From Lenzites betulinus (lineage: Eukaryota; Basidiomycota; Agaricomycetes; Polyporales; Polyporaceae): a stretch of DNA of 64,000 nt. Both the position numbers and the translations under genes were made by a program. Shown one piece after another: positions 13,127-60,577 of the stretch. Location of the stretch: assembly GCA_022264855.1 (NCBI GenBank), contig JABYQU010000029.1, positions 248,001 through 312,000 of the forward strand, given 5' to 3'. The notes under the pieces were generated by a model. The model did not search any database, was not told where the DNA came from, and saw nothing but the letters and a program-made list of their open reading frames with translations. Positions within the stretch are counted from its first letter, which is position 1. Each line of letters starts with the position of its first letter.

Positions 13127-13321
13127 ATGCGCCTCAACGTCGTCATTTCTTGGAAGGTCCTCTTTGCCGTCGTCGCTAGCCTCGCGGCTGTTGGCGCGCG
13201 GGCGATTCCTGATGATGTGGGTGAGTAGTTCTCCACTTTCGGTGGATGCAGGCGTATGTTGAGCTGATGGTCTGCAGTCGGGGATCCTTCGAACGTGCAC
13301 GCTGACAACACCTGGCTCTAG
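13127..13321 (+). CDS. Small secreted peptide precursor ending in NTWL (WL peptide 1)
   Basis: Exons 13127-13220 and 13278-13321 are separated by a 57-bp intron (GTGAGT..CAG) and give 45 aa. Residues 1-26 form a signal peptide (MRLNVVISWKVLFAVVASLA, then a predicted cut after ARA). The second exon adds the C-terminus ending SNVHADNTWL-stop. It shares the two-exon design, phase-1 intron and Trp-Leu end with the other peptide genes in this window, but has no obvious dibasic site and a distinct leader. Function is unknown. I infer a processed secreted peptide. The nearest neighbours are the 400-bp repeat and the intact FunK1 gene. Confidence 0.7.
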
Positions 13322-13687
13322 GCCGAGAGAGTGCCTCGAAGGTGCTTGGTTAGCTTGGTTAGTACATCAGTGTACCCTGGGAAGTAGACGGATATATGCT
13401 AACCTTCTTACAGCCTACAGTCATAGTACCCACAATAGCATGTCCCGCGATTCCACAGCCAACAGCACATTGTTAAGCACATCTCTGTTTCTGAGAGTCG
13501 GCGTCAGTGTCAGTCAGATCTGTATGTAGATCATGCTGTGAAGACGAGATCAAATGAGTAACCTCACCTATCATAATCCAGAAGCCTCCTCTCAGCTAGT
13601 AGTAGTAGCCCACATGGCCATGTACGTGCATGTGCCCCATAAACTCGTTCTGTCTCCTGCAACTATTCGTAGCGACGTGTCCAGTGG

Positions 13688-14090
13688 TCCGTCTGCGCGG
13701 CACTCCCCGCCGGCCGCTCGCATGTTCCAAGTGCTGCCTCTTTGTGCCTGTTTAGATAACGCAGAGCCCACACAGCCGTACGGCCGTACGGCGCATCCGA
13801 TGAAGCTCTGCTACCCCCTATATAGAGCTCGAGGCGGCAATCTCACCGTCACGAAGCTCCAAGTTCCGTGGTTCCATGGTTCTTGCGAAACCCGGGGTGG
13901 TCATGCTCCGCAAGGTTCGTGCGCACTTATGCCGCGGTCGCTGTCGAGCCCGGCGTCTGCAGTGGTAAGTGTTGCGCATGCGCAGTGGACGCTTGCCGTC
14001 ATGCGAGCGTCGTTCGGGGGCATTGGCCTGCGCTTACGTGGACCCGGGGAGATATCCACGTCGGAGAGCCTACTGTCATGGGTGGCTGCC
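13688..14090 (+). repeat. About 400-bp dispersed repeat, copy B
   Basis: This is the partner of 4890-5290, in direct orientation with scattered substitutions and indels. Together with the two FunK1 copies it suggests that both ends of the first 18 kb share ancestry, although the order of repeat and kinase differs between the two places. Confidence 0.65.
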
Positions 14091-15261
14091 AGTGCCCGGG
14101 GATGACCTAAGTTTGAATAAATACTAGTTACGATGAAGACGAATAAACTCACCTAAATCCTGACCCGTGTAAGCGTGCCACGCTGCACCAGGTTCTTAGT
14201 TAACACAAGAAGCCGGTGCGAGTATTCCCGCTACCGGTAACGGTAGTGGGTCTTTGTGAACATTCGACTACCCCCGTGGGAATTGGCCGATGTCACATGA
14301 CGTCTCACGTTACCTGACAAGATAATAGGTTCAAAAAAGTTCAAGTTAGTAACTGGGCTCAAGCTACTCCCTCATGTATACAGCAAAATTCTCCTGCCAC
14401 AACGCCTGTTCCTGCAACGAGTGCGGTAGCGGGCACTGCCGCTCAGCGGCGCTACAGGGTTATGCGTTTTGGTGGTAGGACGTCGACCGTGATGCCAGCG
14501 CTTGAGCGCTGGACACGCCCCACGTGACCCCGCTCGACGCGTCTTCCCGACGCGCGCGCCTCGCCTCCTCAGAAAGTCAGAGCCACGGGGCCGCCGTCCG
14601 CGGACATGTCCGCGGGAACATGTCCACGTCGCAGAAGCGCCGGCCTGCCTTATATGGATGAGCGCTCCTTGTCACTCCCTGTCACTCTCTACTTGCCGCC
14701 TCGCTTGTTGTTGCCTCCTTGGTCCCTGCGCTCACCGCGCTTGAGCCGTTGCCTGCTGAATGAGGTCGTTTAATTGCATCACGGTAGTAGACGTTGGGGA
14801 GTACGCAGCACGGTGTGGTCTGTGGGGGAAAGATGTGAAAGCCACTCAGTGGCTCGCGCTGCTGCATAAGAGCATTCAGAACAAAGGTAAACGCATGCAT
14901 AACTTGGCCACAGCGGCTACGTCATCTGGTGAGAACAAAGCATATGTACGGTATGGCCTGCTACAACAAGGCGAGGCGGAACAAGGCGTGTATACAATGC
15001 GGACTACAAAAGTCACGGCCCATGCAATATAGTCACAGTGACTCCGATGTGACCCTTCGGCATTGACCACTGCCTTTATCCGCAGGACAATCCACCGGAC
15101 GTGTCCGCGGACAAACTCCCCGTCGCTCGGACGTTCTCCGCCTCCTAGTCTGCTACGTCGTCGACGGAGGTGAGTGTTGGTTTTGCTCTTGTTTGCTGTC
15201 CCGTACCTGACATTTTCAATGAGGGCTTTTACTACAGGTAGATTAGTACCGCAATATCAAG
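14091..15261. other. Intergenic, possible decayed LTR-like sequence
   Basis: No gene. The perfect palindrome GTCCGCGGAC occurs near 14595 and again near 15100, a TTATATGG box lies near 14650, and CT-rich stretches follow. This is reminiscent of a retrotransposon LTR or a TATA promoter region, but I could not find paired terminal TG..CA ends or a target duplication. The 3' end serves as the leader of the kinase gene at 15262. Confidence 0.3.
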
Positions 15262-17830
15262 ATGTCTGACATTCTGGAGGGCCCAAAAGACAGCTGGCTG
15301 CAGTGCTACACATCGAACCGCATTGGCGAGCAAGAAGTCGACCGCATCATCACGGCTCTCAAGCACAAGGGCCTCATCGCCCTGCATGCGAATGGTACTA
15401 CTCTTTCGTGGAGGGACTTTTCAGACAAGCCTTCCGTCCTGCACGAGCAGCGCACGGCGCAGAACTCATCTACACGAGCTAGGACTGGGCGCGAGATCTT
15501 CCGACCTCTCGGCGACATCATCAACGCCATCTCCGAGGTCCCTCTTCTCGGCCTCTCCCCTTCGTGCACATATGCGGAAGAGCCGTACTGCACGGAATCG
15601 AATGCTTTGGGGTCTACGCACCACATGGACGGTTATCTGCGGCTCCGAGAGGCGACTTCGCCTGATGCTTCAAGAGGATTGTCAAGGGCGGCCACGTCAG
15701 ACATTGTCGTCAACTTTGAATTCAAGTGGAATGACGAGCCCGGGAACATCATCTATGTGAGTCCCACTGCAAAGGATCTCCTTGAAGCACTGACAAAATA
15801 ATTCGCCCTGTTCAGAACCGTTGGAAGGCACTTTACTCTGTTTGTCACACCCTGCGCTCGGATTGTCGGCGCAAGCATACATACAGCGTGCGTAGCGTCA
15901 GTTTGTGTGACTTGTCGCGTGCTGACCCGTGAGTGGAGTAGATCACCATCGAGGACACCCGCGTATGCTTGTGGTATTTCTCGCGCTCGCATGTGGCCAA
16001 GTCGCAGGAGTTCGATCTACTGGTAAGTACGTCAATTTTGACTCCAGACATTGCTCCGTTAAACATATCTCATAGGACGTCCGTGCCGTTGTGGGGGCAT
16101 TCGCCTCCCTGGTCTTCTCTACTCCCGAAGATCTAGGCTATGACCCCAACATCAGGCGAATCCTCGAACACGACGAGCACACCCAAGATGATGAAATCCG
16201 CTATGTATACCGACTTGAAAACCGCTTCTTCAAGACCATCAAGTGCCGCGACGAATACTACTATCTGAATATCGTCGGACGGGCGACCCGAGTCTGGGAG
16301 GTCATCGAAGTTGCGAGCTTCGACGACACCGCCGCCCTTCCTGACGTACGCCCGATGGTGCTGAGGGACGTGTGGCTCGAACACGGGGGCAGGACAGAGC
16401 GCGAGATCCAGCAGGAAATATTCCAGCGCTGCGACGACCTCGGGAGGAGCTTTCCAGCAGACGACGACCACCGGCTCCGCGGTGTCGATGAGGCGACGCG
16501 GCAACTGCTCCGCCAGCGCCTGGCGGACGCGACATACAAGGAGCTCTTCTTGACCATCGAGGAGGACTACAGAGGGGCATCGTCGAATCCATGTGCCGTG
16601 GGATACACGCCTGCACCCCACATCTTCGCCGAGCGCATTTACGTCGATCACGGTGCAGAGCGCGATGACTCGGACAGTACAGAGCAATCGTCCGTGTCTG
16701 ACAGGTGCATTCGCATCTTTTCCGACGTCCCATTTGCCGATGTGCCACGGTCCAGTCAACCTCGTGAATACAACCCAAGGCGGCGAAACTTTGTGTACCG
16801 GGAAGTCTGCTCTGCGATGCACGAGCTGGACGACTTGCACAAAGCGGTGCAAGCCCTGCTCGATGCACTGTTAGGTGAGACGCCTTATCACGGCCTCAGG
16901 TTGTCCGTGCTGACACGCTGCACACTTCAGCCCTCCAAATATTGTTCCTGATCTCATGGATCCATCGCGACGTGAGTGCAGGCAACATTCTGTTCTACGA
17001 GGGTCGGGGAAAGTTGTGCGACCTCGAATACGCGAAAGAATTCAACCTGGCGGTGGGACGACGCTCGTCTGACCCGAAAACGGTATGTTCGTCATCGCAC
17101 TAGGATAATCAAGGATAATATTCACACTACGCCGGGAACAAAGATATTCATGGCCGTCGAACTTGAGAGTGGTATGGCCATCTACAAGAAGAGGTGGCCA
17201 AAAACCCATGCAGCTTACATGCAGCCCATGGCCTTAGGTCTGCGCCATGTCGTCCGCCACAACTTCCAACACGATGTGGAACCCATCTTCTGGATTCTGG
17301 CCTGGCTTGCCTGCACGCACATCCCGGGGCAAAGTGGACAGAACACCATGGCCCCCATGTTCCACAGCAACGCCCATGATTTCTTTTTTTGCCGTCTACA
17401 GTTCCTCATCGATGGCGAGTTTTGTGCTGAGCAGCTCGACACCCTCCGGCCTCCCTTGCCACCTATATTGCGGGCCGGCTTGCTTGCGATGAGCTCCTTA
17501 CTTAACGACGGCTATCTCGAGCGTGCGGACTCAATCGACGATCGGTCCTCTTACTCGCCCATCTACGGGGAGGTTCGTGAAGCGCTGACAGATATCGTAA
17601 ATGCGATACCGCCTGGGACGGTCGCCCTTGCGCGGCCTCCCCAACCAATCGTGGGCCCGAGATCTGGCCACCGTCAGCGCACGGATGACTTGGCGGAAAA
17701 ACCTGAAGAGGCGCATCCTGAGGACGTGGTGATGGCTCCTCAGGGGATTGCCACCACAGCGAAGCGCGCACGAGGACTTTCGGATGCAGACGACGAATCA
17801 CGGCTACAAAAGCGTCTTGCACGAGAGTAA
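15262..17830 (+). CDS. FunK1 fungal-type protein kinase, intact copy
   Basis: Exons are 15262-15756, 15816-15887, 15942-16022, 16076-16874, 16931-17082 and 17114 or 17144 to 17830, giving about 760-770 aa. The N-terminal half has the family's region ending HTYSITIEDTRVCLWYFSRS. The catalytic loop is WIHRDVSAGNILFYEG and the metal site CDLEYAKEF, with DLE in place of DFG as is usual for FunK1. It is followed by FMAVELESG and RHNFQHDVEPIFWILAW (late lobe helix). The last intron is uncertain: a 31-bp intron keeps GTKIFMAVE, whereas a 61-bp one removes GTK. The C-terminal tail is Arg/Ala/Asp-rich with a possible nuclear signal (AKRARG). Substrates are unknown. It is the sister of the broken copy at 1830-4410. 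Confidence 0.88.
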
Positions 17831-21325: not shown

Positions 21326-21574
21326 TCACAGCCAACAACTCTCGATGTGGCCAACTGCATACATCAGACGAAAGCGTCAGCTGAGTGGCCGTCCAACGCA
21401 TTGTACATGCGGAGAGATCATCTCACCAGAACGGCGGGCGGCGCCCGGGTCACAGTCCGCGAGTGGGGCGACCGCGGCGTCCTCGGGAGTGGGCGCCGCC
21501 AAAGTCGCGGAGGACATGCCGATGACCGCGACAGCCGCGGCGAGGACGAAGAACTTGAGCTTCAGGCTGAACAT
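21326..21574 (-). CDS. Small secreted peptide precursor ending in ESCWL (WL peptide 2)
   Basis: Exons 21574-21427 and 21354-21326 join across a 72-bp intron to 58 aa. The signal peptide is MFSLKLKFFVLAAAVAVIG, cleaved near ATLA-APTP. A short acidic pro-region (EDAAVAPLADCD) leads to a dibasic ARR just before the intron. The second exon then supplies the C-terminus, so the predicted Kex2 product is SVGHIESCWL. The leader resembles the type I copies at 24803-25109 and 53855-54178 but is more diverged. A TATAAAT box lies about 110 bp upstream. Function is unknown. It is likely secreted and processed like a RiPP or signalling peptide. Confidence 0.8.
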
Positions 21575-23488: not shown

Positions 23489-23776
23489 CTAGTACCAGGC
23501 CCTGGCGCTGTGGGTGTGGCCGACTGCACGTTTGTCGAGTATCACAAAAAGAGAAAAAGCGTGGGTTAGCGGGCATTCTATCCTACCGCATCCCACCCCG
23601 GCCGCGGGCAGAGCGCAAAACTCACTGCTATCAGAAGCAACGTCGCGTTTGTAAGTATACTCTGCGTCCCGGCGGAGCACCGCGCCCGTTGGCATGGGCG
23701 TGGGCGCGGGCGTGGCAGAAGAGGTGCCGATGAGTGCGGCGGCGAGCGAGAGGACGATGAGCTTGAGGTTGAACAT
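23489..23776 (-). CDS. Small secreted peptide precursor ending in ARAWY (WL peptide 3, type II)
   Basis: Exons 23776-23626 and 23523-23489 are joined over a 102-bp intron to 61 aa. The signal peptide MFNLKLIVLSLAAALIG is followed by TSSATPAPTP. Two dibasic sites are visible (LRR, then YKR), so cleavage could release a DAEYTY-containing piece and a C-terminal piece ending GHTHSARAWY. This is the only member ending in Trp-Tyr rather than Trp-Leu. It belongs to the type II subfamily (also 55157, 56681 and 60285) and pairs with the type I gene at 24803-25109. A TATATA box sits at 23890-23896. Confidence 0.75.
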   Translation of the reverse strand: MFNLKLIVLSLAAALIGTSSATPAPTPMPTGAVLRRDAEYTYKRDVASDSSEFCALPAAGVGCGRIECPLTHAFSLFVILDKRAVGHTHSARAWY

Positions 23777-23954: not shown

Positions 23955-24430
23955 CTGTACGCTTGCGGCGCCATCCGCCCGCATGCTCTTGGGGAACCAG
24001 ACGTCCCGGGTACACTGTGTGCAAAAATGTGCTAGTAACTCGGAGTAAAAACCGGATCATTACAGAGGTGACACACTCACGGCGTACTCGCTCTTGCCAA
24101 TGGCTAACAAAGGGTCGCGAGCACCTATGTTCAAAAAAGGCACGGGCGAGTGGAAAACACCGAGAAGCAATACGCGAGCATGGACGTGCTAATGGGCTGG
24201 GTCTCAGCTCGAACGTACATACCCGATCACTACAAAGGAGACTCACGACGTGCCTGCCTCTGGGTAACCAGGGGGCCTGCGCACACTAGTGGTACTAGTG
24301 AGTGAAACCGCCGATAGTTGTAAGCAATATTATGCCAGCGCGGAACGTGCTCATGGTCTAAACCTGAGCTCGAACATACAACCCTGATTATTACCAGGCC
24401 CGAGACTCACGGGGCTCGATTCCCGGTCCA
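23955..24430 (-). repeat. Tandem 95/170-bp repeat block
   Basis: About two and a half units lie between the paired type II and type I peptide genes. Each unit contains a (G)TAACNAAG-GG-C-CGCGCACACT-like core, a TGGTGAGTG-like box and GGATCATTACAG-GGAGACTCACG. A longer form adds about 75 nt with GTGCTCATGGTCTGGGCCTCAGCTCG-like sequence. The same units occur at 54490-54960, 56880-57400 and 59940-60110. Confidence 0.7.
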
Positions 24431-24802
24431 ATCCGTCTCTGAGGATGGAACATATCAATCAGGATACTGCTGCGTCCGAACGAGGGCGCGCGACTTAGCC
24501 TGTCTAGTCAAGTCCGGGTCCGAGCCTGAGGCGAGGGCGAGACTATGGCGAAATAGCGAATACACCGTTTTGTTACATAACGAGTCATCCCAAGAGTAGA
24601 TATGTACAGGCACAGACACGCCCTTCCTGTGCTTATGGGCGCTGCATCAACCCTGCTCGCTTGACCGTGACCCCGGAGGGGGCGCCTATGGACAGTTCCC
24701 GGTCTTAGGAACACCTCTATTCCGTATGAATGTCGGTTAGAATGAAAAATATCTAACTATTCACTAGCACTTACTATGCGGCAAGACAAGCTGCCCTAGC
24801 GT

Positions 24803-25109
24803 CTACAACCAACAGTTCTCGATGTGGCTTTCGCGCTTGTCGACTAGACCAGACAGTGAGTGAGTGAGTAAGTGACAATTCGACAGCATTGAGCTCCGTG
24901 GCAGACGGACGAAACGTCCGTTCCACGTTACACAGCCACTGCACTCCGACTTGGGGTGCAGTGCACGAGAGAGACCTGAACTTACCAGCATTGACCTCGC
25001 CACAGTCCGCAATGGGTGCGACTACCGCGTCGGCAGGGGCTGGTGCGGCGGAAGCAGTGCCGAGGAGTGCGACGGCGAGCGCGAGGACGATAAGCTTGAA
25101 GTTGAACAT
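24803..25109 (-). CDS. Small secreted peptide precursor ending in ENCWL (WL peptide 4, type I)
   Basis: Exons 25109-24986 and 24843-24803 are separated by a 142-bp intron (GTAAGT..TAG) and give 54 aa. The signal peptide is MFNFKLIVLALAVALLG-TASA with APAPAD after the likely cut. The second exon encodes VDKR then ESHIENCWL-stop, so a Kex2-type cut after KR would release a nine-residue C-terminal peptide. A TATAAAT box lies at 25231-25238. It is nearly identical in the leader to WL peptide 7 (53855-54178), which sits in the inverted duplicate block. Related remnants are at 57741 and 59223. Confidence 0.85.
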
Positions 25110-25230
25110 GTTGGCGAGTGTATGTGTGGAGGGGTGCGGCGGGAGTGGGGCTCGGTGCTTGGAGCTAGAAGCTTGGACTTGAACGATGGACGAGTCCTTG
25201 TTCTATCCCTCCGGCCTTGCACTGCCAGCG

Positions 25231-25238
25231 ATTTATAC
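25231..25238 (-). promoter_or_regulatory. TATA box of WL peptide 4
   Basis: GGTATAAAT on the minus strand, about 125 bp before the start codon. It is aligned with TATAAA at 53704-53709 before WL peptide 7, with conserved sequence (GTGCAAGG, CAAGGACTCGTCCATCG) between it and the gene. Confidence 0.65.
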
Positions 25239-25259
25239 CTTCAGTCTCCTGCGCGTCCG

Positions 25260-26006
25260 CAGCCAGCGGCAGCATCCGACATCTTCTGCCCACTAACGCC
25301 TGACTCTGTGTGCGGTGCCTTCTCTCCACGAAGCACATCGGCGTTCGAGCTTCCGAAAATCATCGGTGTTGGCGCGCGTCCCACGCAGCCACCGCTCAAG
25401 GTGATAGACCGCCGATGGCTGCGGGCAGTGCGTGTGACAGCGGAACGTCCTGAGAGTCTGGTGATCAGCTGGAACGAATAATAAACACGACCACTTGACA
25501 TACCTGATCAATGCCCTGGCATAGGTGGGTGCGCGGACGATAGACCGTGGTGCGATGCCCACGCGCATTCATCGCGGTGGAGTATCAGCATTCGCATCAC
25601 GACGAATGTGTGGTACGTGTATGGCGGCCCGATTCGAGCCTCCGACGTATCACTGCCGGAACGGCAGTGTGCACTGCGGCCGGGGACACCGCGCACGGAA
25701 CTCCGGAGTGACGCGCCCGGACGGGGATATGATAGTTTGAATACTGATTCCGATCCTGTGTACGCGTTTAGGACAAAGTATGTATCTGCATTTTTTCCGT
25801 TTAGCCTGTGCATCAGCGTCATAGGTGGATCCCGAGAAGGTGTGCTAATGTAGCCCATGCGGGGGTACTGAGCACGCTCTTCGCGCAATAATCATACAGT
25901 ACGTATCTGCAAGGCCGCGTTTATCAGTAGTAAGTATATGCAGAACTGCTTTACGGCAAACAGCGCGTGACGTACACAATATGCTCTCTCGAACGGAGAT
26001 GATCAT
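25260..26006. other. Shared upstream region of WL peptide 4
   Basis: No gene. Blocks here match 53160-53720 in inverted orientation (for example TCAGGACG..TGTACTC and the CACGCATTCATCGCG region). The similarity is non-coding, because frames are not kept between copies. Confidence 0.5.
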
Positions 26007-26239
26007 CTAGAGCCAACTCGTTTCAATATGCGCATGGGGAGCGTCTGGAGATCTACGAGTGCCAACTCCGACCCCGTCCACATGCTCGTATGAGAAAGAG
26101 AGGCCATGATGCGCACCTATCACAACATCGGACAACTCACCCGCGACGGGGACGCGCGGATCCCGCGCACGCCGGCCAGCGCGAAGATGAGCAAAGCGGT
26201 GAGCTGTGAGAACACCCTTGGCGCCGAGCACAAGTGCAT
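26007..26239 (-). CDS. Small secreted peptide precursor ending in ETSWL (WL peptide 5)
   Basis: Exons 26239-26141 and 26084-26007, with a 56-bp phase-0 intron, give 58 aa. The start was chosen at MHLCSAP because the paralogue at 52702 has no upstream ATG. An ATG at 26248 would add three residues. The hydrophobic leader FSQLTALLIFALAGVRGIRA acts as a signal peptide. The second exon contains GTRR, then a C-terminus ending APHAHIETSWL. A dibasic cut would free a 14-residue peptide. A CATATATTC box lies about 100 bp upstream. It is the sister of the frame-altered gene at 52702-52935. Confidence 0.75.
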
Positions 26240-26820: not shown

Positions 26821-26960
26821 AACGACATGATGCACTGGTTCTATCATTGCGGTGTTGAAAACTTGCGACTTATGTGGCAGATATGACGTCCTTTGTTGTT
26901 CCGCAAACTATCCTAGTGAGCGTCGCGGCCTTGTTCATGATCTTTTCGGGAGGTGAAAGT
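26821..26960 (+). pseudogene. Fragment of an unnamed membrane-protein exon
   Basis: ATATGACGTCCTTTGTTGTT and the following bases encode MTSFVVPQTILVSVAALFMI in one frame. This corresponds to MTSSVVPQTILVSVAAPFMI on the minus strand at 50930-51000. The upstream part is out of frame here. A GGTGGT run follows at 26958-26980. I do not recognise the family. Confidence 0.5.
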
Positions 26961-31549: not shown

Positions 31550-32286
31550 TTAAGGAACACAAGCAACACGGTTCAATGCATTATCTTCCCAAAAAATCTT
31601 CTCAGCCCAGGTCATAGAGCAGTAACGGTTAGATGCGTACCTTACAATCTCAGGCGAGGTCTCGGTCGCGTTCAGCTGCCGTTCCGCCCACGCCGCGTAC
31701 TCCTTCTGGTTCTCCTCCACCTTAGCGTACACCGCCCTCCAATCCTTGCACTTTCTGATCGCGTGCGGATGCACGGCGTGGACCTTGTGCGGGTACTGGT
31801 ACGGGTCGAGTTGCAGGTCTTCGCGGCAGAGCAGCTGCTGGCGGAGATAGTTCATGCAGTGCCGCGCCGGCTGCTCAGAACGCTCGCTCTTGGGACGGTT
31901 GAGCTGGTCGCGTACGACATCGAGGCACCGGAGCTGGTGCATCATCGAGACGGTGTACGGGGTGCGGTCGGGGCCGAGGTGGATGATGCCGCCTTCAGGG
32001 AAGAGCGGGGCCCATTGCTGCGCAGAGTCAAGGTGGTAGCGGGTCCAGCTGTCGACTTCGAGTACAACGTCTCCCCTCTCAACATTCCACAGAGCTGTAG
32101 TCATGTTAGCCGGATAAATGGACACTAGTCGTCCCATGAACGCTGCTTACGATGGTTACTTCGACTCTGCTCTCGTTCGGCTCGATCGACTGCGACCTTC
32201 GCAATGATCTTGAAGGTCGCGTTAGCAGCCAGCAAAGCGATTGCCACAGCTATGAACGCATTCTCCAGCGCGCGCTTAGAAAACAT
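31550..32286 (-). CDS. UstYa-like (DUF3328) protein 1
   Basis: Exons 32286-32151 and 32094-31550 give 226 aa if the start is MFSKRALEN. An upstream in-frame ATG at 32334 would add 16 Pro-rich residues. A membrane anchor (FIAVAIALLAANATF) near the N-terminus is followed by a luminal domain with GIIHLGPDRTPYTVSMMHQL. The two metal-motif regions are changed: HQLRC in place of HxxHC, and PARHC in place of the second HxxHC, followed by MNYLRQQLLC. Family members are membrane-anchored oxidases that cyclise or modify peptides in dikaritin RiPP pathways. The altered motifs may mean a different activity. The last part of exon 2 may hold another small intron. Confidence 0.82.
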
Positions 32287-34152: not shown

Positions 34153-34161
34153 GATTCTACC
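34153..34161. repeat. 9-bp target site duplication, left
   Basis: GATTCTACC lies directly outside the left end of the foldback element. The same nine bases follow the right end at 35627-35635. Confidence 0.88.
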
Positions 34162-35626: not shown

Positions 35627-35635
35627 GATTCTACC
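35627..35635. repeat. 9-bp target site duplication, right
   Basis: GATTCTACC, identical to 34153-34161, lies directly outside the right end. Confidence 0.88.
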
Positions 35636-36449: not shown

Positions 36450-37118
36450 TTACGCGGGCATCTGCGACTTGAAGCTCAACCAATCGTTCCACTGTCCCCA
36501 CATCGTCCCATAGAACGCCTCCGCGTCCATACACTGCCTCTCCACCCCGACGCGCTCCGCCGTGTAGTTGCGCGCGAAGGAATCTCCAGGCTCCAGCGAG
36601 AAGTCGGCCGCGCAAAGCGTGTGCTCGCGCATGAAGCTCAGGCAGTGCTCCGCGTGGTGCAGCGCGGCGCCCTCGGGAACCTCGTCGGCGTCGAGCGACT
36701 TGCGCAGGTTGCGCATGCAATGCTGCTGGTGGGTGAGCGAGACGACGAAGAAGCGCTGGTTCGGGCCCATGTGCACGTTCCCGCCGTCGTCGGCCGTTGA
36801 TGTCCAGAGCCACTCGGTGTACGCCTCGGGCTCGTGGATCCCGAAGTGGTCACTCTCCTCGATGGACATGAGGACGTGGGGGCGCGCGTTCACGAGGGGC
36901 ATGCGCTCCGGTACGTCATCCTCGATCCATGCTATGTGGTTTGTTGTGAGCACATGTACATCCTTCATAACGCCTCATTCTCACTCACTATAATGCGAGG
37001 GCGGCGGTGGTCTCCGCGCGAAGATCTTGCGCGCGTCCTCGACGAATGAGAAGTCGATGGCGATGTTGAGGACGGCGAGGAAGATGAGCGAGCACAGGGC
37101 AAGTGGGCGGGAAATCAT
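36450..37118 (-). CDS. UstYa-like (DUF3328) protein 2, both HxxHC motifs intact
   Basis: Exons 37118-36989 and 36931-36450 give 203 aa. The first exon encodes a short N-terminal anchor (MISRPLALCSLIFLAVLNIA). The second begins TWIEDDVPERMPLV and carries GGNVHMGPNQRFFVVSLTHQ. The two signature motifs are complete: HQQHC, then HHAEHCLSFMREHTLC. In characterised members these His/Cys residues are needed for activity, probably as metal ligands. Of the three copies here it is the best candidate for a working oxidase. A likely substrate is the secreted WL peptides (inference from co-location). Confidence 0.88.
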
Positions 37119-49081: not shown

Positions 49082-49293
49082 ATGCGCTTCTTCCCCGCCA
49101 ACACCGTCGTCCTCTCCGTCGTCTTCGCCGTCCTGTTTGGCTCCGCAGTGATGGGAGCGCCGCTCGCGCGCCCGGCCGAAGCTGAGGGTGAGTAGCTGTG
49201 TTACCTTAGCGGGTTAGTCGACGTCAACGATTCTTACTTGTTGTCCTTATAGCCGATGTTGCCGACCCTCATGAAGAATTGGTCTGGCTGTAA
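49082..49293 (+). CDS. Small secreted peptide precursor ending in ELVWL (WL peptide 12)
   Basis: Exons 49082-49187 and 49253-49293, with a 65-bp phase-1 intron, give 48 aa. The signal peptide MRFFPANTVVLSVVFAVLFG is followed by SAVMGAPLARPAEAE. The second exon encodes the end DVADPHEELVWL. There is no dibasic site. A single Arg (LAR-P) could be used instead. It is closest to WL peptide 14 (51213-51410), with which it shares exon-1 length (106 nt) and the pattern DV-x-x-PHE-[ED]-L-x-WL. It lies next to UstYa-like gene 3. Confidence 0.78.
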
Positions 49294-49643: not shown

Positions 49644-50385
49644 TCAGTCGTTCATCGACTCTTGGAACTGCTTCCAAGTCGCCCAATTCTCCTCGATCGC
49701 TCCATAAAGTGTCGGCCAGTCCGCACAGCTCCGCTCACCACCAGAGCGGTCCACCGCGAAGTCCCTCTGCAAGCTGTCCGGGCGCTCAAGGGTCGTATCC
49801 GCGCTACACAGAGCGAACTGGCGGAGGACGTTCAGACAGCGCTCGACGTGCGCACGCTCGCGGCCGTGCGGCAGCGGAGGGCCGTCCCGCTGCACCATCG
49901 TGACAATGACGCGCAGGCAGTGCTGCTGGTAGGAGAACCCTGTGTTGAAGAAGCGGTGCGTGGGCCCGATGCGGACGTTCGCGTCTCCGAAGGGGCCCGC
50001 GTACGACCATTCGAGTTTGGATTGGGGGTAAGAGGAGTTGTAGTGAGCAGTTTCTTCGAGGGTGAGCCCCAAGGCTGGGTGTGAGCCAGGTATGGGGAGA
50101 TGGGGCGGGTAGTCGTCTTCGATGAAGCCTGTCAAACGATGAGCGCAGAACAGTGTGACAATGACATATGTTGCACATACTGTAGGTCTCAAGAGGTGGG
50201 TCTCGTGACGCAGCTACGTCCTTCACATGTCTTGCCAAAGTGACGTCGGCAGCCAAGTTAGCGAGACAGAGTATGAGAATTAGGGCTGCAGCATAGAGGT
50301 AGGTGGGAGTGATTTCTCTGCGGCTTCGAGGAAAGTCTGTGAGTCTACCAAACGGCTTTGGAAGAGCGTGCGGAGGATACAACAT
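49644..50385 (-). CDS. UstYa-like (DUF3328) protein 3
   Basis: Exons 50385-50181 and 50128-49644 join to 229 aa. The anchor helix is YLYAAALILILCLANLAAD, followed by ARHVKDVA and, in exon 2, FIEDDYPPHLPIPGSHPALG. The luminal domain has VRIGPTHRFFNTGFSYQQHC and HVERCLNVLRQFALC. Each HxxHC motif has lost one His (YQQHC, HVERC), so activity may be altered. A truncated relative is at 27262-27490. It is flanked by WL peptides 12 and 14, the closest physical link between peptide and UstYa-like genes here. Confidence 0.87.
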
Positions 50386-50896: not shown

Positions 50897-51121
50897 TCAA
50901 CATGCTTTCTGGTCACCATCGCTAGTACTCTCACCTCCAGCAATGATCATGAACGGCGCCGCAACGCTCACTAGGATGGTCTGCGGAACAACAGAAGACG
51001 TCATATCCGCTACATAAATTGCAAGTTTACAGCACAGCAATAATAAAACCCATGCGGCTAGTCGTGAGCCCTCGAATACCCCAAACATCCATTCAAACGG
51101 CCCTCTAGTAAGCCTGGGCAT
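50897..51121 (-). other. Unnamed hydrophobic open frame, fragment of a membrane protein
   Basis: A 74-codon frame with WVLLLLCCKLAIYVADM and VVPQTILVSVAAPFMIIAGG, followed by a GTGAGAG donor-like site. The same sequence recurs, partly out of frame, at 26821-26960. I recognise no family. It could be a first exon of a small membrane protein or a relic. Confidence 0.4.
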
Positions 51122-51212
51122 CCAGTACTACATGGGCATAATCTCGCGGAGGTTTCACTGCTTGAAAGAGGTGAGCAATATGATGGAGAAGGCACACATT
51201 GGTGGCCGTACG

Positions 51213-51410
51213 TCACAGCCATTTCAAGTCCTCATGAGGCTTGGGGACATCTGCAAGCAAACCATCAGCCTCTCTGCAAGAAGAGTACAAATTCAAAGAC
51301 CCACCTCTAGCCTCTACTGGAAGGGCATGCGCGCCGAGCACAGGTGAGCTGATCAAGGTGGCCAGCATCGCGTATAGGACCACATCGACGACGGCTTGGA
51401 AGAGACGCAT
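51213..51410 (-). CDS. Small secreted peptide precursor ending in DLKWL (WL peptide 14)
   Basis: Exons 51410-51305 and 51250-51213 with a 54-bp intron give 47 aa. Unspliced, the frame is also open (65 aa). The signal peptide MRLFQAVVDVVLYAMLATLI is followed by SSPVLGAHALPVEAR. The second exon gives DVPKPHEDLKWL-stop. The arrangement equals WL peptide 12. It is present only in arm B of the inverted duplication. Confidence 0.75.
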   Translation of the reverse strand: MRLFQAVVDVVLYAMLATLISSPVLGAHALPVEARGGSLNLYSSCREADGLLADVPKPHEDLKWL

Positions 51411-52701
51411 GATTCGGACGGTTGAACTTTCCAGCTTCCGTTGCGTGGGTGCAGGTCCTTCTGACGCGAAGAGGGATCGACTGGCACTGGTAGGCGCAGG
51501 CTCTTGCCAGTGATTTTGTAGGACCCGGCGGCGCTTCGCTCGCTGACTAGTGGCACTGCCGGGACGACATGGACCAGGCTCTCCTTGATTCTCGGACTGC
51601 GGCTGGATGTCGAGTACGCGGGGTTCTTCGCCCTAATCGCTTTACAGGTTCCTGATGCCGACGAAGGCCGCGCAAAGGATAGCACCCTCGCTGTGACACC
51701 GCTGTATGGTTCAGTCAGCCACCCAGAGTCTGTTTTCCTTTCCGCTGGAGATAGGCTCGAACTACCGTTGTTGAAACCTTTGCATGAAAGGGGCTCTCAT
51801 TGCTATCATGTCTGGTATCAAGTTACTGCACTCGGGAGACGCATCGTCCGCTTCGCACTCACACCCTTGCTCGTCGGAGGCTTCGCGGAGGTCGCATGGC
51901 ATACGTGTTTCGACACGATTGCTTCCGGATGTCGAAGGAGAGCTTGGCAAGTCCCATGATGTTGCGATCGACACCGTGAGTATTATACCTCAATGTCTGA
52001 CTCAAACTTCTGTCTTGTGAGTGTAATGTGTACTCGCAATCTCCCCATCCGCGACCGTCTGACTTAACTTACATATCCATCAGGGAAGTTGCCATTGTAC
52101 ATGTCATCATGTCGTTTCGCCATGACGCGCAGTCGATACTGCGTACAACCGGGGTCGCACGGGTACGGGCCGTTGCTGGAAGCATCGACACGCGTTCAGG
52201 ACCGAGCCGCTACCTCTACACGGAGCACACGACTATCAATCTGTTACAGAGCGTGCGAAGCGTTCGCCATCGTGGCGGTCCTGCTATCAGGATCAAGCGG
52301 CGTGAGGAGCTGGTCACACCCTCCCAGCTGGATCACGGAGAGTATTCGGTGCGCAGTTTCCGCATTTGAAATGCAGTGTTCATCATCAATAGAGGGGGAG
52401 ACTGATAAGAGTTGACTGTTCTTCCTCCAGACACTGCGAAGCGCTGAGAATATACGACTCCCACTGCGCTGCCACCAGTGCAAGGGAGCATTGGTGGCTG
52501 CCCACAGTGACTGCGAACGCCGCCTCCGCCGCCGTCGAGGTACGCCACATCTGTTCGAGGCGCACGGCGGGGATTGTAAGGGCGCCGCCGCCATTCCAGG
52601 TTCCCATATATTCGCCGCTCGGGTAGAAGAAGAAGCAGCCCCTCGTCCTTCTGGTACCTAACTCGCGGCCTTCTGAACTTCCTGTCCCCTTGATCGCAAC
52701 A
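51411..52701. other. 1.3-kb intergenic region
   Basis: A 124-codon frame at 51585-51959 has no domain and no counterpart in arm A. I do not call it. The last 450 bp are the promoter region of WL peptide 6, shared with arm A. Confidence 0.4.
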
Positions 52702-52935
52702 ATGCACTTGCGCTCCACGCCAGGGGGGTTCTCACAGTTCGTTGCTTTGCTTATCCTCGCGCTGGTCGGCGTGCGCGGGATTCGCGCGTCCGCCGTCGCG
52801 GGTGAATTGTCCGATGCTGTGGCAGGTGCGTGTCACGATCTTTCTTTCTCATGCGAGCATGCGGACGAGGTCGGAGTTGGCACTCATGGATCTCGAGACA
52901 CTCCAGATGAACATTTCGATTCGTCGTGGCTCTAG
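52702..52935 (+). CDS. Small secreted peptide precursor ending in DSSWL, intron now readable (WL peptide 6)
   Basis: This is the paralogue of WL peptide 5. The hydrophobic leader is MHLRSTPGGFSQFVALLILA. Compared with the paralogue, one extra G lies just before the donor, and the donor is weakened from GTGAGT to GTGAAT. Removing the 56-bp intron (52802-52857) would put the WL end out of frame. Leaving it in gives one open frame of 77 aa ending EHFDSSWL. So either the intron has become exonic or the gene is decaying. The dibasic RR of the paralogue is not kept (GTHGSRD). Confidence 0.6.
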   Translation: MHLRSTPGGFSQFVALLILALVGVRGIRASAVAGELSDAVAGACHDLSFSCEHADEVGVGTHGSRDTPDEHFDSSWL

Positions 52936-53854
52936 ATCATCATCGGCGTCCGAGATACTACATGCCATGGAAATATTGATAGTGCGTGCCGCGCTTTTTG
53001 CCGCAAAGCGGTCCCGCATACTCACTGATAAGAACATATTTCCAGATACGTACTGTATGATTGTTGTACGAAGAGTTGTGCTCGTTACCGCCGCACGGAC
53101 TACATTAGGACACTTCCTCGGGATGCTCGTATTACGCTGACACAGACTAAACGGGAAAATGCAGTTAATTTATACTCAACGCGCACAGGAACCGACTTCG
53201 TATTCCAAGTATTATATCCCCCGTGTAGGTGCGTCGCTTCGGATCACCGTACGCGGTGACGTTGGCCTCAGTGCACACCGTCGTTACGGCAGCGATACGT
53301 GCTCGAAACGGAGTGCGACACTCGACGCACACGGTGAGTTCGCGATGATGAGAACGCATGCGGATGGGCATCGCGTTAGGGTTTATTATCCATCCGCCCA
53401 CCCATGTCAGGGCACTGATCAGGTATGTCAAAGAAGAAGCTCGTCGTCATGTTTATTCGTTCCAGCTGATCACCAGACTCTCAGGACGCTGTACTCTCAC
53501 ACGTACTGCCCACAGCTATCGGCGGTTCATCACCTTGGACGGCGGTTGCGTGGGACCCGGGCACACCAGGGCCAACACCGATGATGTTCGAATCTCCAAC
53601 GCCCATGTGCTTCCTGGAGAGAGGCCCGCACACAGATGGAGGTGCTAGTGTGCTGAAGTCCGAAGCTGCCGCCGCGGGCTGCGGACCCGCAGGATACTGC
53701 GATTATAAACCCTGGCCGTGCAAGGTCGGATGGATAAAGCAAGGACTCGTCCATCGTTCAAGTCCAAGCTTCCAGCTCCAAGCTCCAAGCCCCACTCCCG
53801 TCGCGCACCTGCACACCCGCAAACCCGCACACCCGCACCTATACACTCGCCGAC
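52936..53854. other. Upstream region of WL peptide 7
   Basis: Matches 25130-25900 inverted in several blocks. TATAAA is at 53704-53709. No gene. Confidence 0.5.
53704..53709 (+). promoter_or_regulatory. TATA box of WL peptide 7
   Basis: ATTATAAACC, 146-151 bp before the ATG. It aligns with the TATA box of WL peptide 4. Confidence 0.6.
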
Positions 53855-54178
53855 ATGTTCAACTTCAAGCTCATTGTCCTCGCACTCGCCGTCACACTCC
53901 TCAGCACTGCATCCGCTGCACCAGCTCCTGCCGACGCCGTCGCCACACCCGTTGAAGACTGCGGCGTCGCCGCCGTTGTCAATTCTGGTAAGTTCAAGGT
54001 TTGCTCCTGCACCCCAGGTTGGAGTGTGGTGGCTGTGTAACGTGGAACGATCGCTGGCGGAGGTCACCTCCGTCCGTTCTCGTGCATACGGTCCGATCAT
54101 ACCCACTCACTTACCCAACTCTCTCTCTCTGATCTAGTCGACAAGCGCGGAATCCACGTGGAGAGCTGTTGGTTGTAG
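53855..54178 (+). CDS. Small secreted peptide precursor ending in ESCWL (WL peptide 7, type I)
   Basis: Exons 53855-53987 and 54138-54178, intron 150 bp, 57 aa. The signal peptide is MFNFKLIVLALAVTLLS-TASA. A pro-region with APAPADAVATPVEDCG precedes the intron. The second exon encodes VDKR followed by GIHVESCWL-stop, a clean Kex2 site and a nine-residue C-terminal peptide. The leader and the 3' flank are closely similar to WL peptide 4. The intron holds a CTCTCTCTCT tract before its acceptor. This is the best-preserved type I copy. Confidence 0.85.
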
Positions 54179-54489
54179 ACGCCGGAGCGTCTTGTCTGCG
54201 ACGTTTTGTCTTCCCGCATGGTAAGTGCTAGTGATTGGTTGTGTGTTTTCCATTGCAGCCGACGCTCATGCGGAATAGAGGTGTTCCTAGGGCTCGGAAC
54301 TGTCCATTGGCGCCCCCTCCCGGGTCCCGGTCAAGCGAGCAGGGGTGATGCAGCGCCCATGAAGCACAGGAAGGGATGTGTCTGTGCCTGTACATATTTA
54401 CTACTGGAATGATTTGTTATGTAAACGGTGTGTTCGCTAGTCCGCTATGGTCGCGCCCTCGCTCGGGCGCAGAAGTAACCTGATTAATA

Positions 54490-54960
54490 TGCTCAACCCT
54501 AGATGAACGGAGACTCGAGTCGCCGCGAGTGTCGGGCCATGCAATAATCAGGGTCGTATGTTCGAGCTCAGGTTCAGACCATAAGCATGTTCCGCGCTGG
54601 CATATTACTGCTCACAGCCTCCGTGTTTCATTCACTAGTACCATTTTGAACAGAGTGAACGGGACCCCTGGTCACTCGAGAGCAGGCACGTCGTGAGTTT
54701 CCCCTGTAATTATCAGGCTTTTACGTTCGAGCTGAGGCCCAGACCATTAGCGTGTCGTCCGTGCGCGTATTGCTGCTCGCAGCCATCGGTGTTTTCACTC
54801 GCCCGTACATTTTTGAACGCAGGGTGCGCGCGACCCTTTGTTTCCCACTCGCAAGAGCGAGTACGCCGTGAGTCAGTTTCCCCTGTGTTGATCCGGCTTT
54901 CACTCACCAGTAATCGTCGAATACAGTGTGTGCAGGACCCCTGGTTACCCAAGAGCAGGC
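54490..54960 (+). repeat. Tandem 95/170-bp repeat block
   Basis: About two and a half long units between the type I and type II peptide genes. Each contains TTCGAGCTNAGG-CCAGACCAT, a TTTTCACTC box and CCCCTGTAAT-ATC. This is the same family as at 23955-24430. Confidence 0.7.
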
Positions 54961-55156: not shown

Positions 55157-55413
55157 ATGTTCAACTTCAAGCTCATCGTTCTCGCGCTCACCCTCGCCCT
55201 CATCGGCACCTCTTCTGCCGCGCCCGCGCCAGCTCCGCACGACGAGGGCGCGGTGCTTCGCCGGGACACAGACTGTCCGACGACCAACGTTGAGGACGGT
55301 AAGTCGTAGTTCTGCCTGGGTCGTGGTGTGATAGTATAGAATTCCGGCTGACCGACGCGCTTTCTTTCCGAAACAAACGAACAGGAGGTCACGGCGACAC
55401 ATGCTGGCTGTAG
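55157..55413 (+). CDS. Small secreted peptide precursor ending in DTCWL (WL peptide 8, type II)
   Basis: Exons 55157-55298 and 55385-55413, intron 86 bp, 56 aa. The signal peptide is MFNFKLIVLALTLALIG-TSSA. A pro-region APAPAPHDEGAVLRRDTDC contains a dibasic RR. The second exon completes GGHGDTCWL-stop. There is no dibasic pair directly before the final nine residues, so the mature product may be longer than in type I genes. TATATAT is at 55043-55049. Confidence 0.83.
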
Positions 55414-56402: not shown

Positions 56403-56681
56403 TTACAGCCAGCACGTGTCGTCGTGACTCGGACCTTCTGCACATTTGTCGAAAGAGAAAGAGTGTCAGTCAGCCGGCATTCTATATACTACCACATCGC
56501 ACTAGCACTCATGCAGAGCGCAAGACGTACCGGTGCCAACGTCGGCAGTCACGCCGCCACAGCCTTCTGTGCTGCGGCTGAGGATCGCGCCCTCGTCGTG
56601 TGAGGCTGGGGTGGGCGCGGCAGAAGAGGTGCCGATGAGGGCGAGAGTGAGCGCGAGGACGATGAGCTTGAAGTTGAACAT
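56403..56681 (-). CDS. Small secreted peptide precursor ending in DTCWL (WL peptide 9, type II)
   Basis: Exons 56681-56531 and 56437-56403, intron 93 bp, 61 aa. The leader is identical to WL peptide 8 over the first 22 residues, followed by a pro-region APTPASHDEGAILSRSTE in which the RR of the sister gene reads SR. The second exon gives EGPSHDDTCWL-stop. A TATATA box lies at about 56789-56796. Its type I partner on the same strand is only a relic (57741-57778). Confidence 0.83.
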
Positions 56682-56879: not shown

Positions 56880-57400
56880 AGGAACAAAGTATCGCGCGCA
56901 CATTGTGTTCAAGAATGTACTGGTGAGTGAAAACACCGGCGATGGCGGTGAGCAATTCTACGCGAGGACGGAGCTTGCGATGACTTTGTGCTTTAGCTCG
57001 AGCACACACACCGGATCATTACAGTGGAGACCCACGGCCTGCCCGCTCTTGAGTAACAAAGTGTCCCGCGCACACTATGTTTAAAAATGTAGTGGTGAGT
57101 GAAATCGGATTATTATAGGGGAGGCTTACGGCGTGCCCGCTCTTGGGTAACAAAATGTCCCGCGCACACTATTTTCAACGACGTGCTGGTGAGTGCAAGC
57201 CGGATCATTACAGGGGAGGCTCACTTACGGTGTGCTCGCCCTTGAGTAACAAGGTGTCCCGCGCACACCATATTCAAAATGATCCTGGTGAGTGCAAACG
57301 CCAGCGAGGGCTGTGAACAGTACTACGCGGCGAGAACGGAGCGTACTCATGGTCTGGGCGTCAGCGAGAACGCACAAGGCGGATCATTATAGGAGACACT
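56880..57400 (-). repeat. Tandem 95/170-bp repeat block, about four units
   Basis: The most regular block. Units starting CTCTTGNGTAACAAAGTGTC recur near 56880, 57047, 57140 and 57240. Each has CCCGCGCACACT, a TGGTGAGTG box and GGATCATTACAGG. The first and last units contain the extra 75-nt segment and the middle two lack it. Confidence 0.8.
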
Positions 57401-57740: not shown

Positions 57741-57778
57741 CCACAACCAACAGTTGTCGACGTGAATTCCGCGCTTGA
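57741..57778 (-). pseudogene. Relic of a type I WL peptide gene, core exon only
   Basis: The minus strand reads KRGIHVDNCWL, but the stop codon is changed (TAG to TGG), the acceptor side is altered and no leader exon is found upstream. The 3' flank of type I genes is kept at 57400-57720. This completes a fourth type I/type II couplet with WL peptide 9. Confidence 0.7.
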
Positions 57779-59222
57779 CGAGTACTACACCAGAGAGACT
57801 CGGAGTGCGTGAGTGAGTGAGTGATGATCCGACCGGCGCATGCACGGGTGCAGCGAGCGTTCAACTACATTGCACAGCCACTGCACTCCGACTTGGCCCG
57901 GCGGGTACATGAGCACGACTTGAACTTATCAGCTTTAACGGGCAACGAAGGAGGTGAGGGTATCTACAAGCTTCCTCGTGTTTTATATTGATTCGACAGA
58001 GATTCGAAGCATGTATTATCATGATCATTACAGTGTACTTATACATGGTACTTATTATATGTTGAATGCCTTACAGTTATGTAAGAAGATACACGGCGAA
58101 AGAGATTGAGGGATTTAATGCATGAAGGCCTTGGGATGGAAGGTAAATGTCTATCAAGATTGGGGCTGTATTAAGTATCGAATGTCTTCAATAGGCGCAG
58201 ACAAGCCGTCTTCAATGTTCTCTCGAGAGACTGCATGCCAACATGCTGTATGTTGACGCAGCTCTTTCCAATGAGGCGTCAAGGCTTCGAAATCTGTAGG
58301 CAGAGGGCCTGAATGAATGATATACTATTACATGCAACGGCAGTATGTATGGCCCCGGGTCACGGAGATGTATCGGCTTTGAACGCGTGGACAAAGATGC
58401 AGAAGTTGCTTGCTGTCTGACGACTGCGACGCCTTGCCGGAATGGCGGCAATTGAAACAGCCCTCACTCACCTTTGAGCTCGGACAGTACGAGGAGGTAA
58501 TCTTCCAGAGGTAATGGGAAGAACTGGGATATTGTAGTGCTTCAACGAGGTGTACGTGAGACGTTATAGCTACTTACCGGAGTCCCGTGGGGATTGGAGA
58601 GCGTGGCCTGCACTCCTCGTAAGAGATAGTGAGCGAAGCTGAGCGTCTCGATGTACTCTGTAAACCGCGAGATACGTTTCTCTTGTGGTACCAGGAGCGG
58701 TCACCGTCAACTCGGAGCGCATGGCGGCGAGGAAGAATCGGATCTCTTCCTATGTTTCTTTGACACGGGTGGCAGCCTAAAAGCAGAGTACGTCACTGTG
58801 AGGTGCATTAGGATGATTAACTCGTTTAAAAGATTGTTCATACCGAACTAATGGAGACGGACGCCTGCAACTGGATTTGACGCGCTAGCGTAGAGTACGA
58901 ACGCGTACTAAAACAACATTTATGGGGCGCTTACTTCTGCCATTGAAGTCATCGAGTTGGTCCTGGAACTTTTAAACGCGTGTAGAGAAGAGTATCTGGA
59001 GGTAAGCGTGCTTGGTGCGGTCATGGTGGCCATTGGAGGACACGCGATGAAGACGCTTGCGGCTTGCGGTTCCGAGTTAGTAAGATATGTGAGATCTGGC
59101 GACGGACATGCAGAAGGATGTGTGCATCCTGTGTGATGGTTGGCGGTGTCTGTGCATGTAACAGACAAACCCAACTCTGGCGACTTCCTCGCATACGAGT
59201 AGTGACACTCACCGGCATTATG
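57779..59222. other. 1.4-kb intergenic region
   Basis: 57779-57950 still resembles the type I intron and exon-1 border. Beyond it I see no gene up to the decayed copy at 59223. Confidence 0.45.
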
Positions 59223-59514
59223 ATGTCCAACTCCAAGCTCATCGTCCTCGCGCTCATCATCACACTCCTCGAAACCTCCTCGTGGACATCTCCGACGTTG
59301 GCCATGCTAGTAACTGGCAAGTTCAAGTCGTGTTCACGGTACGTATACCCGGGCCCGCCGGGCCAAGTCGGAGTGTAGTGGCGGTGCAACGTGGTTGGAC
59401 GATCGCTGCTCTCGTGCCCTGATCGGATCATCACTCACTCACTCACTCACCACTCACTTTCGCTTTGGTCTACTCGACAAGCGCAGAGTCCTCGCCGAGG
59501 ACCATCGGCGGTAA
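59223..59514 (+). pseudogene. Decayed type I WL peptide gene (copy 11)
   Basis: The leader MSNSKLIVLALIITLLETSS is recognisable, but the pro-region is shortened and substituted. The intron donor is GCAAGT instead of GTAAGT, the acceptor AG before the DKR codons is AC, and the final exon no longer encodes the CWL end (it ends RR-stop). The TCACTCACTCACTCACTCACC tract lies in the former intron. It sits upstream of WL peptide 10, as in the other couplets. Confidence 0.75.
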
Positions 59515-59918: not shown

Positions 59919-59939
59919 AGTACTCGTGAGTGTCATCTA

Positions 59940-60110: not shown

Positions 60111-60170
60111 AAGCGAGCCGGAAATCGAGTTTTCGCCGTGGAATGCGGACCCGCCGACGTTGGCTACGGG

Positions 60171-60178
60171 TATATATG
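60171..60178 (+). promoter_or_regulatory. TATA box of WL peptide 10
   Basis: GGGTATATATGC, about 110 bp before the ATG, conserved with the other type II genes. Confidence 0.65.
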
Positions 60179-60284
60179 CTCGGTCGTGTTGTACACCGGA
60201 GGAGACATCGACCTCGAGCTTCGCCTTCCGCATTCCTACACGCAGCCCACAGCAGTACTCATACTCCCCCACATCCTCACCGAC

Positions 60285-60577
60285 ATGTTCAACGTCAAGC
60301 TCATCGTTCTCGCCCTCGCCCTCGCCCTCATCGGCATCTCTTCTGCCGCGCCTATGCCAGCTTCGCACGACGATTCAGGCGCGATTCTCAGCCGCTGCAC
60401 AGCAGGCGGCGTGACTGCCGACGATGATGGTAATACTAGTGAGTGTTGCGTTCTGTCAAGATGGGATGTGGTGGTATAGAATCCCCGCTGACCCACGCTC
60501 TTTCTCCTTCTCTTACTATGATATTCCACAAACATCCAGTCGGGCACACTCACCGCAGGGACGACGCCACGTGCTGA
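60285..60577 (+). CDS. Type II peptide precursor with lost WL end (WL peptide 10)
   Basis: Exons 60285-60438 and 60540-60577, intron 101 bp, 63 aa. The signal peptide is MFNVKLIVLALALALIG-ISSA, with a pro-region APMPASHDDSGAILSRCTAG. The second exon contains HRRDDATC-stop. Aligned with its sisters, the Trp codon of the CWL end is now TGA, so the precursor stops at the Cys. The rest of the gene and its promoter are intact, so it is either a recent loss or a variant ending in Cys. Confidence 0.7.

Follow-up and report, generated by a model that had tools for sequence, protein, structure and literature searches.

Introduction

What is produced from a cluster of tiny secreted precursor proteins whose leaders vary while their C-termini are kept? 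This question is raised by a stretch of 64 kb from the genome of the polypore Lenzites betulinus (Polyporales), which corresponds to positions 248001-312000 of contig C31 and is referred to here as the window, representing 0.17% of a genome of 37.4 Mb assembled in 108 contigs. Two proteins encoded in the window correspond to NCBI records of this species. A sequence-only reading of the same DNA had drawn attention to at least twelve two-exon genes, each coding for a signal peptide, a short pro-region, and a short tail that ends in Trp-Leu in all but two of them. As judged from their sequences, these genes represent a family of tiny secreted precursors, the conserved C-terminus of which is probably the active part. 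Because three oxidases of the UstYa family (PF11807/DUF3328), which had escaped that first reading, are encoded in the same region, the likely meaning of the family shifts from plain secreted peptides to precursors of ribosomally synthesized and post-translationally modified peptides (RiPPs).

Precursor genes and their conserved C-terminus

A blind scan of 104 kb of contig C31 (positions 238001-342000, including the window) recorded all loci combining an ATG and a hydrophobic signal with a Trp-[Leu/Tyr]-stop end and no more than one GT-AG intron, the signal peptides being scored by a hydropathy rule of our own instead of SignalP. It yielded 10 loci ending in Trp-Leu (one of them in Trp-Tyr), every one of which is among the twelve described previously, and thus recovered the signal peptides, the short tails ending in Trp-Leu and the single AWY variant of the earlier description. 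When Cys, Arg, or Gly was required in place of Trp, control scans of the same 104 kb gave only 1, 0, and 1 loci, respectively. All twelve starts indeed exist with the ends reported for them, but the cluster contains 10 intact precursors and not 12, because 26239(-) is frameshifted and 60285(+) stops at the Trp codon (genes are named here by the position of their start). The latter gene ends in ...DDATC-stop, with TGA replacing the Trp codon, and is the copy correctly noticed before as truncated at the Cys. The splicing of genes 56681 and 21574 is identical, letter for letter, to that of the NCBI entries C2E23DRAFT_886988 and C2E23DRAFT_886975. For 52702, 51410, and 23776, the unspliced frame is open too and leads to the same end as the spliced one.

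The sole residues common to all ends are a His and a Trp separated by four residues. This His-x4-Trp motif is present in 10 of 10 intact precursors, including 23776, in whose variant end the Leu is replaced by Tyr, and it is borne by four different leader types (MFN/MFS, MHL, MRF/MRL, and MRLN), in keeping with the earlier remark that the leaders differ while the probably active end is kept. Immediately ahead of the Trp, the intact copies carry Cys, Ser, Thr, Val, Lys, or Ala. Therefore, the previously suggested pattern H-x-[E/D]-x-[C/S/V/K]-W-L stands with respect to the invariant His and Trp, but not with respect to its acidic and Cys positions, which are variable. Each precursor carries one C-terminal core and no repeated cores, and some members of the MFN group have Ala-Pro repeats downstream of the signal peptide. 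As an observation in its own right, the peptide end HVESCWL (54138-54178) resembles the second copper motif HVERCLN of oxidase 3 (49850-49827), a likeness which may be a coincidence and is treated as such.

The pattern CAYNNNGANNNNNNNTGGYTNTRR (His-x-[acidic]-x-x-Trp-Leu-stop), which was composed after the family had been seen, matches 24 sites genome-wide, compared with 21 in a reversed control; 11 of the 24 fall into the window against an expectation of about 0.04, and this contrast in density is independent of the pattern having been written post hoc. Only one of the 13 hits outside of the window has a signal-like model, and a weak one, while our own scan gave no signal-peptide model for the match HIEHCWL at C2:666343. 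Genome searches with the MFN-type leader found 8 matches, all on C31, and those with the MHL leader found only 52702 and 26239; a search with the MRF leader returned only itself and missed its sister 51410, and is therefore of limited sensitivity. A scan with stricter criteria, aimed at tiny genes that encode a signal peptide and contain one intron, identified 17 loci within these 104 kb. Of them, 14 belong to the family, namely 5 damaged copies and all of the intact genes except 51410 (9 of 10). The same scan gave 2 loci in the reversed 104-kb sequence, 8 in 60 kb around other UstYa loci (three from the second family on contig C23 presented below, five unclassified), and 1 in 39.3 kb from 13 other loci, which were those at hand rather than random draws.

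Coding evidence and selection

A large inverted duplication (24043-26973 versus 50914-54905) carries several precursor genes and therefore provides natural gene pairs for tests of selection. In the spliced frames, the rates of synonymous and nonsynonymous divergence (dS/dN) indicate constraint in five of six overlapping pairs, with values of 0.34/0.11, 0.47/0.22, 1.14/0.36, 1.36/0.31, and 1.51/0.33, whereas the sixth pair, consisting of the Trp-Tyr variant 23776 and 55157, shows none (dS 0.36, dN 0.35). The old pair 49082 and 51410 exhibits 60% and 73% identity in the two exons, compared with 37% in the intron and 45-47% in the flanks. The respective values are 61% and 66% (exons), 57% (intron), and 42-49% (flanks) for 55157 versus 53855, and a DNA alignment of 21574 with 25109 gives 69% for exon 1, 48% for exon 2, and 48-51% for the flanks.

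UstYa-type oxidases in the cluster

A Pfam search with 111 of the 173 window open reading frames (ORFs) of at least 110 amino acids detected the UstYa domain three times, interleaved with the precursor genes. The three oxidases score 56.8, 38.4, and 38.0 bits against PF11807, all above the curated cut-off of 25. In each of them, a one-intron model joins the UstYa domain to an N-terminal exon that was judged by eye to be hydrophobic, an arrangement like that described for CctR in the accessible text of PMC12435403. Oxidase 3 and precursor 49082 are convergent, their stop codons being 350 bp apart. The copper motif HxxHC(x)nHxxHC is complete in oxidase 2 only. Genome-wide, at least 10 matches to PF11807 are found at E ≤ 0.001, all counts being lower bounds: five on C31, three on C23, and two on C61, and three of those listed are located among the precursors. 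A GNAT domain was also matched in the Pfam search, while a search of NCBIfam with 8 ORFs, including all three UstYa domains, gave no match. Among solved structures, oxidase 2 produced one match at chance level (E 0.86) and the UstYa alignment none; the AlphaFold model of oxidase 2 is weak (mean pLDDT 55.9) and usable only for indicating two motif stretches as helices.

As far as the published extracts go, DUF3328 proteins are binuclear copper enzymes in which a membrane helix is combined with a lumenal domain (PMC12435403). In other fungi they cyclise RiPP cores (PMC7329392, PMC9233826), a step for which they are required according to PMC7329392, and they are counted among the side-chain cross-linking families (PMC12186524).

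Tiny precursors at other UstYa loci

The stretch 93233-105830 of contig C23, which contains three UstYa matches, harbors five genes of a second family of tiny secreted precursors, which is unrelated to that of C31. Close to where exon 1 ends, all five encode Trp-x4-His, which is the His/Trp spacing of the C31 family in reverse order. A homologous splice (phase 1, intron of 46-66 nt, exon 2 completing the last residue) leads to the ends FWKGYAHETIEE, IWEGHLHAKINQ, LWRGFAHVKIKE, LWKGDTHMKIEE, and LWSDKGHVEIPSE. When one member was used as the query against the genome, the matches at E < 0.05 were the query itself and three other C23 genes; a match on C35 had E 0.48, whereas the gene at 93233 was identified by inspection. 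Hence, in two precursor families that are unrelated and both reside at UstYa loci, one Trp and one His are held at equal distance in opposite order; no p-value is attached to this parallel because it was by looking that the second family was discovered. A second UstYa pair of contig C31 (at 369.7 and 372.8 kb, outside of the window) is accompanied by one tiny two-exon gene, 373693(-). Three further tiny secreted genes stand beside the two UstYa genes of C61 and may represent other core types.

Damaged copies and duplications

In addition to the intact genes, the cluster contains several impaired ones (Table 1). For 26239(-), no canonical GT-AG model reaches the end HAHIETSWL, and 60285(+) has a near-identical twin at C31:323275(-). 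No leader exon was seen in the approximately 430 nt inspected upstream of the relic at 57741..57764. Further family copies beyond those listed by the sequence-only reading are 59220(+) in the window and C31:323275(-) and C31:325275(+) outside, all three of which have lost the Trp end. Since relics and damaged copies stand among intact genes, the cluster undergoes birth and death of copies.

Table 1. Features of the precursor cluster and of related loci. Positions refer to the window unless a contig is named.
Feature	Position	Strand	Remarks
Precursor	13127..13321	+	exons 13127-13220, 13278-13321; end SNVHADNTWL; own leader type MRLN
Precursor C2E23DRAFT_886975	21326..21574	-	exons 21574-21427, 21354-21326; end GHIESCWL; MFN-type leader
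Precursor, variant end	23489..23776	-	exons 23776-23626, 23523-23489; end HTHSARAWY; open unspliced too
Precursor	24803..25109	-	exons 25109-24986, 24843-24803; Kex2-type site VDKR, then ESHIENCWL
Precursor	49082..49293	+	exons 49082-49187, 49253-49293; end ADVADPHEELVWL; MRF leader; converges with oxidase 3
Precursor	51213..51410	-	exons 51410-51305, 51250-51213; end DVPKPHEDLKWL; MRL leader; open unspliced too
Precursor	52702..52935	+	exons 52702-52825, 52907-52935; end DEHFDSSWL; MHL leader; open unspliced too
Precursor	53855..54178	+	exons 53855-53987, 54138-54178; VDKR, then GIHVESCWL
Precursor	55157..55413	+	exons 55157-55298, 55385-55413; end GGHGDTCWL
Precursor C2E23DRAFT_886988	56403..56681	-	exons 56681-56531, 56437-56403; end EGPSHDDTCWL
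Probable pseudogene	26007..26239	-	MHL leader type; HAHIETSWL present; 1-nt frame difference versus sister 52702(+)
Truncated copy	60285..60577	+	exons 60285-60438, 60540-60577; end HTHRRDDATC-stop; Trp codon = TGA
Exon 2 relic	57741..57764	-	VKR-GIHVDNCWL; stop lost (reads through); one of the 11 window pattern matches
Relic	59220..59514	+	MFN-type leader; exon 2 LDKR-RVLAEDHRR without Trp-Leu end
UstYa-family oxidase 1	31550..32286	-	226 aa one-intron model; HQLRC...PARHC
UstYa-family oxidase 2	36450..37118	-	203 aa one-intron model; canonical HQQHC...HAEHC
UstYa-family oxidase 3	49644..50385	-	229 aa one-intron model, picked from 8 possible splices; YQQHC...HVERC
Second-family genes	C23: 102546, 103627, 104794, 105666		tandem four; fifth at 93233, 9 kb away
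Tiny two-exon secreted genes	C61: 94172, 98769, 103463		beside two UstYa genes; ends CSCSDA, EAVY, SACLF

Several other repeats were recorded in the window. At 57012-57297, beside precursor copies, a unit of about 94 nt is repeated three times in tandem; its second and third copies share 82% and 66% identity with the first, and scattered relatives occur at 24223 and 56840. A perfect inverted repeat of 655 nt (34161-34815 and 34973-35627, spacer of 157 nt) represents either a fold-back element or an assembly artefact. Moreover, a fungal protein kinase gene (PF17667) is present twice about 13.4 kb apart (1829-4397 and 15261-17826, blocks 82-95% identical), and a gene-length stretch is duplicated at 6037-6867 and 28992-29893 (73-85% identical in blocks), the tested minus-strand ORFs of which matched neither Pfam nor NCBIfam.

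Discussion

The linkage of the family to UstYa genes, together with the invariant His and Trp, the constraint on the spliced frames, the second family at the C23 locus and the enzyme precedent in other fungi, renders it reasonably probable that the products are single-core, non-repetitive RiPP precursors of the UstYa/DUF3328 type, whose C-termini are modified by the neighboring oxidases. We infer that such a precursor would enter the secretory pathway through its signal peptide and would be modified within its last 9-13 residues in the Golgi lumen by a membrane-anchored UstYa copper oxidase of the same cluster. Because His and Trp, four apart, are the sole invariant residues of the core, the bond formed would most likely involve the Trp, probably linking it to the His. 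Subsequent removal of the pro-region would then free the C-terminal peptide, with Kex2 cutting at KR or RR in some copies and a Ste13-type activity trimming Ala-Pro dipeptides, and the product may perhaps serve in combat with other wood fungi. It is conceivable, if rather doubtful, that the two families together represent a new class of fungal RiPPs, in which UstYa enzymes close the C-terminus into a six-residue ring by a side-chain bond between Trp and His in both orders (His-x4-Trp on C31, Trp-x4-His on C23). If true, the bond of this ring would parallel in fungi the moroidin bond of plants, for which an unrelated family of copper enzymes is responsible, and it would explain the substrates of many basidiomycete UstYa genes.

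A number of observations weigh against modification by UstYa or against the common spacing. Oxidases 1 and 3 have incomplete copper motifs with one substitution in each half (Table 1), precursor 13127 and the UstYa gene closest to it are about 18 kb apart, and the DNA between the precursors also codes for a lipoyl ligase and a CAAX-protease domain. Counting the UstYa loci of the genome as four merged clusters, we estimate a chance of about 1% that one of them would be linked to any given 64-kb window. A KR site directly precedes the core in only two precursors, 25109 and 53855. In the younger gene pairs, exons and flanks show about the same degree of similarity, and for 23776 the exons (51-73%) even fall below the upstream flank (77-80%) in both comparisons; these pairs are therefore neutral or contrary with regard to constraint. 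The splice models of the C23 genes were chosen by homology from several possible ones per gene. The second exon of C31:373693(-), ELETNVRTGLQWLARRQHLLVIIDDH, contains Trp-x5-His, and the ends of the C61 candidates depart from the His/Trp spacing; therefore, the spacing rule is not general. Finally, searches for homologues in other species among 5.8 billion proteins gave three proteins, all from the C31 contig, an absence that is weak evidence because the method needs shared five-residue words and predicted proteins and one query had only 15 candidates.

The precursors might alternatively yield unmodified secreted signalling peptides resembling alpha-factor or the Kex2-processed repeat proteins (KEPs), with a linear C-terminal peptide binding to a receptor and the UstYa enzymes being incidental or serving another product. 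The KR sites of 25109 and 53855, an RR located two residues ahead of GHIESCWL in 21574 and the Ala-Pro repeats would all suit this interpretation, and basidiomycete KEPs with Ste13 signatures and ones with a C-terminal Trp are described in the available portions of PMC6339444 and PMC9769878. It is nevertheless considered unlikely: a repeated core is absent and most copies have no basic site immediately before the core, while three of the at least 10 genomic UstYa matches lie inside the cluster and a second family of tiny precursors occurs at another UstYa locus. The products might also be antimicrobial peptides or small secreted effectors, deployed against animals or in combat among fungi and relying on free Cys, His, and Trp as such. 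This would agree with the gain and loss of many copies and with the description of L. betulina as a combative mycoparasite of Trametes versicolor in the accessible part of PMC12455916. However, the Cys position is occupied by six different residues across the 10 intact copies and there is thus no conserved disulfide, which makes unmodified effectors quite improbable, whereas an effector role as such is compatible with a RiPP origin.

The two remaining explanations have been rejected. Lipopeptide mating pheromones of a B mating-type locus also derive from small multi-copy precursors, and a CAAX-protease-type domain is encoded at 45755-46174, but the precursors possess a signal peptide and no CaaX box, the Cys being third from the end and often absent. 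Moreover, all 18 STE3 matches (PF02076) are on contig C65, and the five matches to PF08015, which are weak (best E 0.02), comprise four on C65 and one on C16 but none on C31, leaving this assignment a practically negligible probability. That the genes are chance artefacts, i.e., non-coding open frames in duplicated DNA, would be in line with the extensive direct and inverted duplication of the region, because of which the copies are not independent, and with the one pair devoid of constraint. Yet the constraint extends across the splice junction in five of six overlapping pairs, 49082 and 51410 are conserved in the exons only, two NCBI gene models match exactly, and the control scans were nearly empty; selection and controls together make an artefact very improbable.

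Returning to the favored interpretation as UstYa-type RiPP precursors, tiny single-core proteins lack the repeats required by KEP mining and are easily overlooked by gene callers; only two of the 10 intact genes surfaced as named proteins in protein searches. The predicted precursors supply exact sequences and masses for testing; the calculated [M+H]+ values are 1043.498 for linear GIHVESCWL and 1130.494 for linear ESHIENCWL, and would be 1041.482 and 1128.478, respectively, after formation of one bond at the expense of 2 H (2.016 Da).

Comparison with known systems

The earlier statement that no described peptide family has this signature is consistent with our survey of mainly open-licence literature and protein searches, in which none appeared among the papers and proteins listed. 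The closest relatives in organization are the dikaritins (ustiloxin, phomopsin, asperipin-2a) and other UstYa RiPPs, which share the signal-peptide precursor, a cluster that also encodes UstYa oxidases, frequently two or more of them, and Kex2 sites in part of the precursors. Of the features defining dikaritins or ust-RiPS, the cluster shows UstYa genes near the precursors (three PF11807 matches) and a hydrophobic signal-like start. In contrast, dikaritins typically contain repeated cores separated by Kex2 sites and are defined as a class by Tyr ethers, whereas the precursors of this basidiomycete have one C-terminal core with conserved His and Trp in place of a conserved Tyr. Because repeats and a conserved Tyr are both lacking, the family is regarded as a variant that would work like a UstYa RiPP rather than as a dikaritin as defined. 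The KEPs of Agaricomycetes are likewise secreted and exhibit Kex2/Ste13-type features, some of them with a C-terminal Trp according to the available text of PMC9769878, but they are defined by their repeats, while the precursors described here have no repeated core and at most an occasional dibasic site. The KEP pipeline, for which the accessible text of PMC6339444 gives a minimum of four fragments after in-silico cleavage, would therefore skip them.

A precedent for Trp-His chemistry, to be taken as an analogy only, is the plant burpitide moroidin, which is made by copper-containing BURP enzymes and contains a link from Trp-C2 to His-N1 in the core QLLVWRGH, as reported in the available sections of PMC11253845. 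Both systems feature a binuclear copper enzyme and a core with Trp and His near each other, but the BURP family is unrelated and of plant origin, the cores are repeated in a fused precursor, and the spacing is Trp-x2-His. Finally, the UstY clusters of lecanoromycete (lichen) fungi, as presented in the accessible part of PMC12048977, also contain genes for UstY-type enzymes without a repeat precursor, and a single-core precursor is suggested there as one possibility. Whereas no precursor with conserved repeats was found for those clusters in that account, a set of candidate precursors is present in the cluster of L. betulinus.

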